IMG/VR virus record: IMGVR_UViG_3300043436_001211 | Location: 1 to 23,318 of that record | DNA from: a virus | DNA length: 23,318 bases | Reading direction: 5' to 3' (one strand) | Shown here: in pieces, positions 10,765-23,051 of the stretch | Numbering within the stretch: position 1 is the first letter of the stretch | How the letters are laid out: the number at the start of each line of letters is the position of its first letter | Translations under genes and position numbers: made by a program | The notes under the pieces: model-generated | What the model was told of the DNA's origin: nothing | Databases searched by the model: none | Seen by the model: the letters and a program-made list of their open reading frames with translations, nothing else

Positions 10765-11040
10765 ATGAGTAAAGTTGAGCAATATTCGCGTCCATGGGTA
10801 ACATTTAATCCAACCGATAAAACACACCGTGAAATTTTCCATACAGCATTAAAACATAATACGTGGGGAAAATCCCCTGTTCGGTTTTGGCTAGAAGGAG
10901 AAACATCTAGTTTAATGGATCAATGTACTCAAAAAATGGCCAGATATTATATGGAACAAGAATTTGGTAGAATCAAAGATAAAACGATTGCAGATGAAAT
11001 TAATGTTATTAATCAATATCGATATGTTTCTACAGCATAA
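10765..11040 (+). CDS. Unknown phage protein
   Basis: A 91-residue basic protein with SRPWVTFNPTDKTHREIFHT, SPVRFWLEG and MDQCTQKMARYYMEQEFG. No named family. AAGGAG at 10751-10756 is a strong ribosome binding site after the phosphoesterase stop, so the two are co-transcribed. It is the last gene before the promoter at 11052. Confidence 0.65.
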   Translation: MSKVEQYSRPWVTFNPTDKTHREIFHTALKHNTWGKSPVRFWLEGETSSLMDQCTQKMARYYMEQEFGRIKDKTIADEINVINQYRYVSTA

Positions 11041-11051
11041 TACCCTTACGG

Positions 11052-11080
11052 TTGACAGGGTTACTAAAAGATGTTATAAT
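11052..11080 (+). promoter_or_regulatory. Consensus sigma70 promoter
   Basis: TTGACA (11052-11057), 17-bp spacer, TATAAT (11075-11080). An ACCC/GGGT complement (11042-11045 with 11058-11061) overlaps it. Confidence 0.9.
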
Positions 11081-11100
11081 ATAGCATGAAAAGGAAAAAT

Positions 11101-11406
11101 ATGACAGATACCGAAAAATACACAGGAGCATGGTACGCCTCTGCTTCAGACCAAGAACGCGATATATTTAAAAGTTGGATCAAGAGTCATCTTGCAATGG
11201 GTGAAATGAAAATTAAATTTACCAAAAAAGATAACACGATTCGAGATATGCGTTGCACTCTCGGTGCAGGATATTTGCCTGTAACTGAAGAAAAAGAAAT
11301 TAAACGAAAAGAAAACACAGAAGTACTTGCAGTGTGGGATATGGATAAAGGTGCATGGCGTGCTATTCGATATGAAACAATCAAAGAAATCCGCTTCGAC
11401 ATTTAA
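11101..11406 (+). CDS. WYL_2 (DUF2693)-like small protein
   Basis: A 101-residue protein. The segment IKFTKKDNTIRDMRCTLG, then GYLPV, then VLAVWDMDKGAWRAIRYETI, matches the pattern of the Sm-like SH3-barrel family formerly called DUF2693 and now WYL_2, found in T4-like and other large phages. Members are proposed to bind nucleic acid or nucleotides; no activity is established. The start is placed at 11101 behind the AAAAGGAAAA ribosome site; ATG 11086 lies at the transcription start and is probably 5' UTR. Confidence 0.7.
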   Translation: MTDTEKYTGAWYASASDQERDIFKSWIKSHLAMGEMKIKFTKKDNTIRDMRCTLGAGYLPVTEEKEIKRKENTEVLAVWDMDKGAWRAIRYETIKEIRFDI

Positions 11407-20492: not shown

Positions 20493-21131
20493 ATGTCTGA
20501 TGGATTTGATTTCGATTTTAATTTAGAAAAAGTACAGCATTTATTGCCAAGAGTTAAAAATCACCAAGAATGGTATGACTCTATGGTAGAAACATTGCCG
20601 CAATATGGTATTAACGATATCGCGCGCGTATCCGCATTTATTGCACAATGTGCTCATGAATCAGGCGGATTTGCAGTTATGCAAGAAAATCTAAACTATA
20701 GTGCAGATGGCCTACAAAAGATATTTGGTAAGTATTTCCCGAATCCTCAAATTGCAGCACAATATGCAAGACAACCTGAAAAGATTGCTAATAGAGTTTA
20801 TGCAAATAGAATGGGTAACGGGGATGAAGCAAGCGGAGAAGGTTGGAAGTTTAGAGGTCGCGGACTAATTCAATTGACAGGTAAACATAATTACACAAAA
20901 TGTTCCGAGGCATTTTTTGAAGACCACACCCTATTAGATAAACCCGATATTTTAGTTCAACCTTACTATGCTTTAAATTCAGCATGCTGGTTCTGGAATG
21001 CTAATAATTTAAATGTGCTTGCTGATGCGCAAGATATTAAAATGATGACAAAGAAAATCAATGGTGGATTTATTGGTCTTGAAGATAGACTTAAACACTA
21101 CAATCACGCAGTCGAAATATTACAGGAATAA
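20493..21131 (+). CDS. GH19 family endolysin (chitinase-like lysozyme)
   Basis: The 212-residue protein shows GH19 motifs: AQCAHESGGF (catalytic Glu56), QENLNYSADGL, KYFPNPQIAAQYARQPEKIA, VYANRMGNGD and the substrate-binding WKFRGRGLIQLTGKHNY (118-134). It cleaves the glycan strand of peptidoglycan at lysis. No signal peptide is visible, so release needs a holin or the membrane proteins nearby. Ribosome site AAAGGAAA. Confidence 0.93.
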   Translation: MSDGFDFDFNLEKVQHLLPRVKNHQEWYDSMVETLPQYGINDIARVSAFIAQCAHESGGFAVMQENLNYSADGLQKIFGKYFPNPQIAAQYARQPEKIANRVYANRMGNGDEASGEGWKFRGRGLIQLTGKHNYTKCSEAFFEDHTLLDKPDILVQPYYALNSACWFWNANNLNVLADAQDIKMMTKKINGGFIGLEDRLKHYNHAVEILQE

Positions 21132-21133
21132 GA

Positions 21134-21808
21134 ATGATCTATAATCATGTTAAGGTGAAAGAATTTGAGGAACTGGAACAAGTTACTCGAGAAGATGGAG
21201 TAAGATTTTACGCAACACCCAAAGGTAAAAAATATCCTTCGGTGACTACTGTTTTATCAGCGCATGGTAAACAAGGATTAATGGAATGGCGTAAAAGAGT
21301 AGGTGAAGAACAAGCAAATAAAATTTCAAGCGCTGCCGCAAGACGTGGCACTAAAATGCACTTGCATTGTGAAAATTATCTTAATAATGTCAATGTGCTA
21401 GATACAATTCCAGTATTTCAAAAAGAATTGTTTGAAAGTATTATCCCATATCTACATAAAATTAATAATGTTCATGTTCAAGAACAAAGATTATATTCTG
21501 ACCATTTAAGATTGGCAGGAACTGTAGATTGTGTTGCCGAATATGAAGGTCGCTTAGCAATCATAGATTATAAAACATCTAGCAGACGAAAAGCTAAAGA
21601 ACACATTCATAATTATTTTATGCAGTGTGCTGCATATGCAGTTATGTATGAAGAACGAACAGGTACACCTGTAAGCAAATTAGTTATTATTATGGCAGTC
21701 GAAGACGATGAACCTCAAGTATTTGTCGAAAAACGAGATAATTGGGTAACCAAATTATTGGAGTACAGAGATTTGTACGAAAAGGACAAACAACTTTTGA
21801 CTTCTTAA
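21134..21808 (+). CDS. RecB/MGME1-like PD-(D/E)XK exonuclease
   Basis: The 224-residue protein has the RecB-type nuclease pattern: YPSVTTVLSA, ARRGTKMHLHCENYL (His77), a Glu at 117, GTVDCVAEYEGRLAIIDYKTSS (Asp132, Asp145, Lys147) and a QCAAYAVMY Gln-Tyr helix. Such single-domain phage enzymes act on single-stranded DNA ends in recombination or genome processing, similar to mitochondrial MGME1. The start is two bases after the endolysin stop. The tmRNA promoter is inside its 3' end. Confidence 0.88.
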   Translation: MIYNHVKVKEFEELEQVTREDGVRFYATPKGKKYPSVTTVLSAHGKQGLMEWRKRVGEEQANKISSAAARRGTKMHLHCENYLNNVNVLDTIPVFQKELFESIIPYLHKINNVHVQEQRLYSDHLRLAGTVDCVAEYEGRLAIIDYKTSSRRKAKEHIHNYFMQCAAYAVMYEERTGTPVSKLVIIMAVEDDEPQVFVEKRDNWVTKLLEYRDLYEKDKQLLTS

Positions 21809-21825
21809 ACAAAAGGCATTATAAT
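21797..21825 (+). promoter_or_regulatory. Sigma70 promoter of the tmRNA
   Basis: TTGACT (21797-21802), 17-bp spacer, TATAAT (21820-21825). Expected transcription start near 21832. Confidence 0.85.
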
Positions 21826-21839
21826 AGAGTTATTGCTGT

Positions 21840-22037
21840 ATGAAGCAAAGAGAAACAGATTCTGGACGCGGGTGCGAATCCCGCCAGGTCCACCATAAAG
21901 ATTTACCGCCCGAACCGCAGAAGCCAAATTCTTGTTGCGGTAAAGGATGCGAGGGTTGTGTTTGGATTAGTTATTTTGAAGCACACAACCTTTGGAAAAG
22001 TCTTTATGATGGGCCTGAAATAGATTCGACAGGGTAA
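21840..22037 (+). CDS. Oxidored-like domain ORF nested in the tmRNA gene (65 aa)
   Basis: The frame runs through the whole permuted tmRNA junction. Residues 22-52 (LPPEPQKPNSCCGKGCEGC then VWISYFEAHNLW) match the Oxidored-like (PF09791-type) signature PPEPxKPxxCCGxGCxxCVWxxY, with four Cys. This part lies precisely in the 115-nt intervening segment (21896-22010). Residues 1-18 are encoded by acceptor-piece RNA, and the last eight by the 5' end of the coding piece. The only ATG, at 21840, is about 8 nt after the expected transcript start and has no ribosome site. The motif is too good for chance, but whether it is translated is uncertain. Confidence 0.5.
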   Translation: MKQRETDSGRGCESRQVHHKDLPPEPQKPNSCCGKGCEGCVWISYFEAHNLWKSLYDGPEIDSTG

Positions 22038-22094
22038 AGAGTACCAGAGTGGACAGCACATCAGAGTAGATGTTAAAACTAAAACAAAGTAAAC

Positions 22095-22127
22095 GCAAAC
22101 GACTCACAGTTCGCATTAGCAGCCTAA
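22095..22127 (+). other. tmRNA tag reading frame, ANDSQFALAA-stop
   Basis: GCA at 22095 is the resume codon, and the frame reads ANDSQFALAA then TAA. The ANDxxxALAA form is typical of proteobacterial tags and its LAA end is the signal for ClpXP and ClpAP. The sequence after the stop, with GCAG/CTGC around it, fits the usual P5 helix. Confidence 0.93.
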
Positions 22128-22210
22128 ACTCTGCTTAGGGTTTCGATAGGTTTCCTCGTAACAGAATAACCTATCATTTCACAAACACTCATACACACAA
22201 GGAGATTAAA

Positions 22211-22483
22211 ATGAGTAATATGACACCGTTCGAAATTAGATTAGAACTTTTAAAAATGGCCAAAGATATGCTTGGTGACGATTACTACGGTAAACGTGAA
22301 GTAATATCTAACGATTGGGCTACTAAGGTAGAGACAGCTAAACATGCTGGCCAAACACCTCCAGAGCATCCGGGCTATCCTGCCTACCCCTCAGAAACTG
22401 ATATTATTGCAAAGGCTCATGTATTGAATGGCTTTGTTTCTAACATTCCTCAAGATAATATAAAGACTATTAGTAAAAAGTAA
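22211..22483 (+). CDS. Conserved T4-like/cyanophage protein of unknown function
   Basis: A 90-residue protein. MTPFEIRLELLKMAKDML, then DYYGKREVISNDW, then PPEHPGYPAYPSETDIIAKA and LNGFVS form a pattern that is highly conserved among T4-like phages, including cyanophages; no role is known. AAGGAG at 22200-22205 is a strong ribosome site right after the tmRNA gene, so it may be read from the tmRNA promoter. The start may be the first or second Met (22211 or 22220). Confidence 0.75.
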   Translation: MSNMTPFEIRLELLKMAKDMLGDDYYGKREVISNDWATKVETAKHAGQTPPEHPGYPAYPSETDIIAKAHVLNGFVSNIPQDNIKTISKK

Positions 22484-22520: not shown

Positions 22521-23051
22521 ATGAAAACATATACACAAACATTTTTAGTAGCAGTATCTGCAGTATTGTTGGTATCAATACTAACACAAGTAACAACATC
22601 GAAATTACATAAGTTAAAACAATCGAACTTTGCAGATACTACTGCAACGGTTGCAGTTAGAGAACAGCAATTAGATTGTTTGGCAAAAAATATTTACCAC
22701 GAAGCAAGAAGTGAACCATTTGAGGGCAAGGTCGCTGTAGCGCAAGTTACAATGAACCGGGCCGCCAATGCAGGTTTCCCAAACGATATTTGCCGTGTGG
22801 TGTATCAAAAGAATGTGGTATATGAAAAAGTTATTTGTCAGTTTAGTTGGTACTGCGAGACAGCTACAAAAACAAAACCAATTCACCAATCCGCATATAA
22901 AGAATCTTATGAAGTAGCTAAGAAAGTCTTACTTGAAGGATTCCGATTAGCAGGATTAACTGACGCACTTTATTATCACGCAACATATGTTTCTCCTGGA
23001 TGGAAACGACAACAAATCGCACAAATTGGCAATCACATTTTTTACAAATAA
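22521..23051 (+). CDS. SleB-type cell wall hydrolase, membrane anchored
   Basis: The 176-residue protein has an N-terminal membrane anchor or signal (FLVAVSAVLLVSILTQV, 8-24), then a Hydrolase_2/SleB domain: LAKNIYHEARSEPFEGKVAV (catalytic-type Glu61), AQVTMNRAANAGFPNDICRV, QFSWYC, then AYKESYEVAKKVL, LYYHATYVSPGW and IGNHIFYK. SleB-family enzymes cut peptidoglycan as lytic transglycosylases. Phage use may be in lysis, as a second hydrolase beside the GH19 endolysin, or as a host-wall remodeller. Confidence 0.9.
   Translation: MKTYTQTFLVAVSAVLLVSILTQVTTSKLHKLKQSNFADTTATVAVREQQLDCLAKNIYHEARSEPFEGKVAVAQVTMNRAANAGFPNDICRVVYQKNVVYEKVICQFSWYCETATKTKPIHQSAYKESYEVAKKVLLEGFRLAGLTDALYYHATYVSPGWKRQQIAQIGNHIFYK

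Follow-up and report, generated by a model that had tools for sequence, protein, structure and literature searches.

The permuted tmRNA and its coding spacer

The window, meaning the whole stretch of 23,318 nucleotides analysed here, is a 23-kb IMG/VR virus fragment with phage genes that include an exonuclease, PhoH, a ligase, and endolysins. ARAGORN calls a tmRNA of the permuted type (tmRNA*) at 21803–22218 with the tag ANDSQFALAA. The Rfam covariance model RF04321 matches positions 21834–22127 with 113.1 bits against a gathering cut-off of 47, and the beta_tmRNA model matches as well, with 103.6 bits; from this betaproteobacterial type of tmRNA, a betaproteobacterial host can be inferred as a hint. 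The criteria for a permuted tmRNA are met, since an acceptor piece with CCA lies upstream of a 5′ piece and a tag reading frame. The features of this locus, from promoter to tag, are on the plus strand. The acceptor (3′) piece, made up of a P2 strand, the T arm, the acceptor strand, and CCA, occupies 21834–21895. The 5′ piece extends from G1 at 22011 to 22180, the latter limit being approximate, and contains the tag reading frame with its stop (22095–22127). As CCA ends at 21895 and G1 is at 22011, the intervening segment (IVS, or spacer) spans 21896–22010 and measures 115 nt, in agreement with the permuted tmRNA, and the 115-nt segment between CCA and the 5′ G, initially read from the letters of the window. 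No intron family reached its gathering score in the Rfam search of the window for a group I intron, and the T arm is uninterrupted. Lysis-type genes are found on both sides of the block formed by the exonuclease and the tmRNA, at 20493–21131 and 22521–23051 (GH19-like endolysin; cell wall hydrolase).

The spacer is coding. An open reading frame of 65 codons (21840–22037) has its ATG in the acceptor piece, remains open across the acceptor piece, the IVS, and the beginning of the 5′ piece, and stops at a TAA in the 5′ piece. A profile search places the Oxidored-like domain (PF09791) at residues 22–54, corresponding to 21903–22001, with an E-value of 2.5e-10 and 40.3 bits against a curated cut-off of 24; the motif is CCGKGCEGCVW. 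No match to a PHROG family was obtained for this frame. The original prediction had placed an Oxidored-like gene in the IVS, with its N-terminus taken from the acceptor piece and its stop inside the tmRNA 5′ region, and had named a PF09791 profile search as a check. The open frame and the domain match bear this out, and the relatives described below share the arrangement. PF09791 has one solved relative, an oxidoreductase-like domain protein (PDB 7zm7 chain o). The function of the family is not established in the literature found, and neither is the molecular role of the phage protein.

Relatives of the nested gene

The same nested Oxidored-like frame is present in at least about fifty IMG/VR loci, at least 34 of which are distinct after removal of duplicates. 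The domain is in frame with the position of the acceptor ATG, without a stop, in all 34 distinct copies among the matches listed, and in the same set the acceptor codon is ATG in 33 copies and ACG in one (L178/L300). Relatives with stops or frameshifts next to a retained tmRNA, or a missing profile match, would have refuted the original prediction, and neither was encountered among these matches. The spacers are 115 or 109 nt long, a difference of two codons. In the nested loci that were scanned, RF04321 scores range from 98.8 to 126 bits, i.e., the tmRNA is intact. The CC-x-x-GC-x-x-C core is retained in most copies, with GC replaced by CY in L032/L033 and by AC in L017/L019. These counts represent related sequences and not independent events, the contigs are partial, and the IMG/VR totals are lower bounds.

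Substitutions within the IVS are mostly synonymous. Pairwise comparisons give 1 nonsynonymous and 12 synonymous changes (L049 and L052), 3 and 15 (L031 and L052), and 3 and 11 (L049 and L031), and the pooled pN/pS is 0.28 at a dS near 1. Conservation at the level of codons, suggested beforehand as a check, is thus present in the IVS. The frame conservation and the synonymous bias of the nested gene are more than chance. These data bear on the idea that the frame is incidental, with the similarity among copies arising from RNA structure or recent descent and no protein being made. Both ends of the frame do overlap conserved tmRNA, a closing helix constrains the ends of the IVS, and one decayed relative demonstrates that the domain can be lost: L036 has a 58-nt IVS without the cysteine core and an ACG at the acceptor ATG, and its tmRNA is retained. 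Neither RNA structure nor recent descent fits the strong synonymous bias at a dS near 1, the PF09791 match, or the same coding signature in the separate nested families described below, and this already disfavoured idea can scarcely be maintained.

Probable start of translation

A sigma-70-like promoter (TTGACT-17-TATAAT, 21797–21825, 11 of 12 consensus positions) precedes the tmRNA. Two such sites were found near the window tmRNA compared to 2.7 in shuffled sequences; since sites of this kind are expected by chance, the promoter is supported by its position and match quality alone. A promoter ending at 21825 would place the transcript start near 21832, with the ATG at 21840 about 8 nt into the message. 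There is no Shine-Dalgarno (SD) sequence ahead of this ATG, and the stop codon of the exonuclease gene is 31 nt upstream of it. Initiation at a nearly 5′-terminal AUG and re-initiation after the exonuclease stop are both possible.

The acceptor ATG is the likely start of the nested Oxidored-like gene, a reading taken from sequence, with translation itself inferred. Several other candidates were considered. A near-cognate or SD-driven start inside the IVS was rejected for lack of a consistent in-frame codon, and an upstream in-frame start in L178 (MQNDLKK...) was rejected because its frame overlaps another small gene. The acceptor ATG together with its open frame is too weak to serve as proof of the start, as the combination is seen in 9 of 10 unique acceptors with an Oxidored-like gene and in 31 of 67 without one. 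The domain could instead be translated from a non-AUG start, by coupling to or re-initiation from the upstream gene, or by frameshifting. The absence of an SD sequence and the nearby exonuclease stop are compatible with such routes, and L178/L300 fully retains the domain despite its ACG, a start that remains unexplained. Against them stand the in-frame, open ATG in nearly every distinct copy listed and the stretch from CCA to the domain, which has no ATG, GTG, or TTG in any of the 34 distinct copies among the matches listed and no consistent near-cognate codon. We regard a start other than the acceptor ATG as unlikely, and the acceptor ATG is kept as the preferred start.

Other genes in phage tmRNA spacers

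Permuted tmRNAs were collected by IMG/VR pattern scans for the acceptor end and combined with earlier loci. At least 190 distinct permuted tmRNAs have both pieces; 24 of these contain an Oxidored-like gene, 93 contain another ORF with a Shine-Dalgarno sequence and a start codon shortly after CCA (SD-ORF), and 73 contain neither, a few of the last holding further ORFs that fail the SD-ORF criteria. The window ORF does not belong to the SD-ORF class, as the stretch from CCA to the domain lacks a start codon, and represents an acceptor-start subclass instead. The 93 nested SD-ORFs form at least 41 protein clusters. Their start codons are mostly 9–14 nt after CCA, and in 46 of the 93 the stop is the TGA of a TGAT preceding G1. 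Ten nested proteins were scanned for domains, and two gave matches above cut-off, a thioredoxin (75 bits) and a CxxCxxCC protein (26.6 bits); no domain match above cut-off was found for the others. The 268-nt IVS of L231 and L284 encodes a complete 84-residue thioredoxin (CGPC).

One of the scans had pre-selected an SD sequence after CCA, and frequencies were therefore drawn only from two unselected scans. In this unselected set of 91 tmRNAs there are 29 SD-ORFs and 6 Oxidored-like genes, and 27 of the 91 pass a strict criterion compared to 3.65 expected from dinucleotide shuffles. The pN/pS ratio is 0.12–0.67 in 13 nested families; two further pairs differ by one change each and the ratio is not useful. 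Small genes of many unrelated families use the IVS as a cargo site, and the window gene belongs to one of about 40 such families. Taken together, we consider it probable that the window carries a real protein gene within a spacer that is cut out of a working permuted tmRNA, as one case of this general cargo arrangement.

Some features were observed alongside this survey. Long nested genes in L103, L157, and L177 start after ATAAATA(C/T)TA(G/A)ATG, a sequence inside the spacer that resembles a T4-type late promoter and might yield nearly leaderless messages. For the tmRNAs of L010, L345, and L299, the tags predicted by ARAGORN are unusually long, at about 27 residues (e.g., ANVNKTVTVSGKNIKFSARSAKEALAV), and are either real or misread frames. 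A GOLLD RNA (160 bits) is located in L122 at 10928–11336 on the plus strand; the nested-ORF tmRNA of this 286-kb contig lies about 4 kb upstream of it.

The spacer-closing helix

In the predicted fold of the window, a helix closing the IVS extends the acceptor stem, with the 5′ strand of stem and helix at 21885–21904 and the 3′ strand at 21998–22017. Both strands are also protein-coding, CAGGTCCACCATAAAGATTT pairing with AAGTCTTTATGATGGGCCTG. Covariation could not be tested in the Oxidored-like closing helix as the strands are too uniform. Across the SD-ORFs, a permutation test was carried out with one representative from each of the 41 clusters; the summed energy is −323 for each spacer's own strand pairs compared to −200 (sd 11) when the partners are shuffled, and none of 5000 permutations matched it. 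The complementarity of the closing helix is maintained across unrelated nested genes.

This conservation is relevant to the suggestion that the gene is real and the tmRNA has become a non-functional carrier. By reasoning alone, tmRNA folding would suffer if a ribosome passed through the acceptor arm. A mere carrier would not be expected to keep the closing-helix complementarity across unrelated nested genes, or the covariance-model scores and tag frames that the nested loci retain, and we find this suggestion very unlikely.

In SD-ORF spacers, the SD sequence sits in the 5′ strand of the closing helix. Its mean predicted probability of pairing with the 3′ tail of the spacer is 0.95 in the folded precursor. 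A pairing probability above 0.7 is reached for the SD sequence in 98% of 83 spacers, but in only 10% once the tail is left out to mimic nascent RNA. These folds contained the acceptor stem, a choice that favours closure. The folding models suggest an SD sequence that is mostly free in nascent RNA and buried in the precursor, from which a switch from messenger to tmRNA is inferred. That the same transcript may act as a messenger or as a tmRNA precursor, as originally proposed for the window, finds support only in the predicted folds of these sister cases and without translation data.

The nested ORFs could also be translated from the excised IVS as a free mini-messenger and not from the nascent precursor. 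In the SD-ORF class the excised piece would span the SD leader to the stop, and about half of these ORFs end at the TGA before G1. The ends of the IVS are predicted to be still able to pair and so to hide the SD sequence after excision, and the Oxidored-like class, having no start inside the IVS, cannot work in this manner. Translation of the excised spacer thus seems improbable to us, and translation of the nascent precursor is the preferred reading.

Oxidored-like genes outside the spacer and possible gene capture

Alignment with the family identified at least 66 Oxidored-like loci, 49 of which were scored as nested. In 11 of the 66, the gene is directly upstream of the acceptor piece or its remnant, abutting or overlapping it (L035/L334, L341, L342, and L345–L352), and in L345–L347, L350, and L352 the C-terminus of the protein is read from the acceptor arm. 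The frame of L345 runs on through MKQREKCSGRGCESPQVHHKEY, the same acceptor frame that supplies the N-terminus of the nested copies. The locus in L336 ends at the contig end, yet it also reads on into a 5′ piece. No tmRNA was found within about 1.5 kb at five of the 66 loci (L343, L344, and L353–L355), and two of these five contigs have a permuted tmRNA elsewhere. Most non-nested copies have their own ATG where the domain begins (MYPxP, MHPxP), whereas this ATG is replaced in nested copies, e.g., ATG TAT CCA versus TTT TAT CCA.

A possible route into the spacer is seen in L184 (9830–10300, plus strand), where two acceptor pieces flank a small gene (MYKVNF...) ahead of a single 5′ piece. A relative of this gene, 55% identical, is nested in the L162 spacer, and further relatives immediately precede the acceptor in L178, L036, L111, and L142. 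The arrangement in L184 is likely an intermediate of gene capture via acceptor duplication. Duplication of the acceptor followed by the loss of one copy would carry an upstream gene into the spacer, with the direction being inferred, and this model also fits the presence of Oxidored-like genes on either side of the acceptor.

Distribution in phages and cellular genomes

When 84,980 species genomes of bacteria and archaea were scanned for the pattern, three hits emerged. Only one of them combines a permuted tmRNA with a nested ORF; it comes from an Alteromonadales MAG contig, probably of phage origin. No nested gene was found in the cultured phages examined, which infect Stenotrophomonas, Xanthomonas, Alcaligenes, Caulobacter, and Pelagibacter (HTVC008M); their spacers are noncoding hairpins. 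A tblastn search for cultured phages with the Oxidored-like and nested families returned only generic thioredoxins among the matches listed. Within the genomes covered by these searches, coding spacers are a phage-specific feature of some uncultured phages.

Proposed mechanism and comparison with known systems

Permuted tmRNAs are generally processed into two pieces. Based on the promoter match, a single transcript would begin just upstream of the acceptor piece. Ribosomes may then translate the nested ORF on the nascent RNA, a step for which coding selection is observed and translation and its start are inferred. Initiation would occur in most phages at the SD sequence immediately after CCA, and for the Oxidored-like gene most likely at the acceptor AUG, giving the protein additional N-terminal residues that the tRNA-like arm encodes. 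After synthesis of the 3′ end of the IVS and of the 5′ piece, closure of the acceptor stem with its predicted extension would bury the initiation site. RNase P and the tRNA 3′-end nucleases would release the IVS and the two tmRNA pieces, in an order that is inferred. Duplication or recombination of the acceptor piece would bring new genes into the IVS, the arrangement being seen in L184 and the direction inferred. The full proposal, that the cargo is translated only while the RNA is nascent, that the closing helix is a one-way switch to tmRNA, and that genes are swapped by acceptor duplication, is tentative, and we would not put it at quite even odds. The evidence consists of sequence and predicted folds without expression data, and tmRNA charging and trans-translation are likewise inferred.

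Dual-function bacterial RNAs such as SgrS/SgrT and RNAIII also combine coding and structural roles on one transcript. In the present case, by contrast, the structural role is that of a translation factor, and a single helix is predicted to make the two roles mutually exclusive. Compared to other PF09791 proteins, the window protein shares the CCxxGCxxCVW core, above the curated cut-off, but is phage-encoded, is 65 residues long, and takes its N-terminus from a tmRNA acceptor arm.

Two-piece tmRNAs are found in phages that are mainly marine or aquatic (PMC9004378), and standard, intron, and permuted forms of tmRNA are described in the accessible part of PMC11915505. The window shares gene order, acceptor and tag features, and the RF04321 score with the permuted tmRNAs of Alphaproteobacteria, Betaproteobacteria, Cyanobacteria, and aquatic phages, as far as these are covered in PMC9004378 and the accessible part of PMC11915505, but differs in that its spacer is a conserved protein gene. 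The spacer contents mentioned in that part of PMC11915505 are a tRNA-Ala, reported as unique, and a repetitive element, with no protein gene among them. The intron form, with a group I intron in the T loop and in some cases a homing endonuclease gene (PMC11915505, same part), likewise has a protein gene within a removed segment of the tmRNA gene. In the window, however, the spacer lies between the two mature ends and not in the T loop, there is no group I intron, and spacer cargo in the recognised families is not endonuclease-like. The absence of any described case, noted at the outset, holds for the literature searched, in which no earlier account of a permuted tmRNA whose spacer encodes a protein was found, subscription papers being outside the scope.

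Permuted tmRNA genes with a coding spacer form a new variant, for which a likewise new regulatory logic is proposed. If true, a permuted gene with a message as its discarded spacer would join the standard, intron, and permuted forms of the tmRNA gene. The pattern reveals dozens of small-protein genes in phages that gene prediction may overlook, given their overlap with an RNA gene. The arrangement offers a simple example, open to testing, of a single RNA that chooses whether to be translated or to assist translation, and spacer cargo is a possible reason why phages keep the permuted form.
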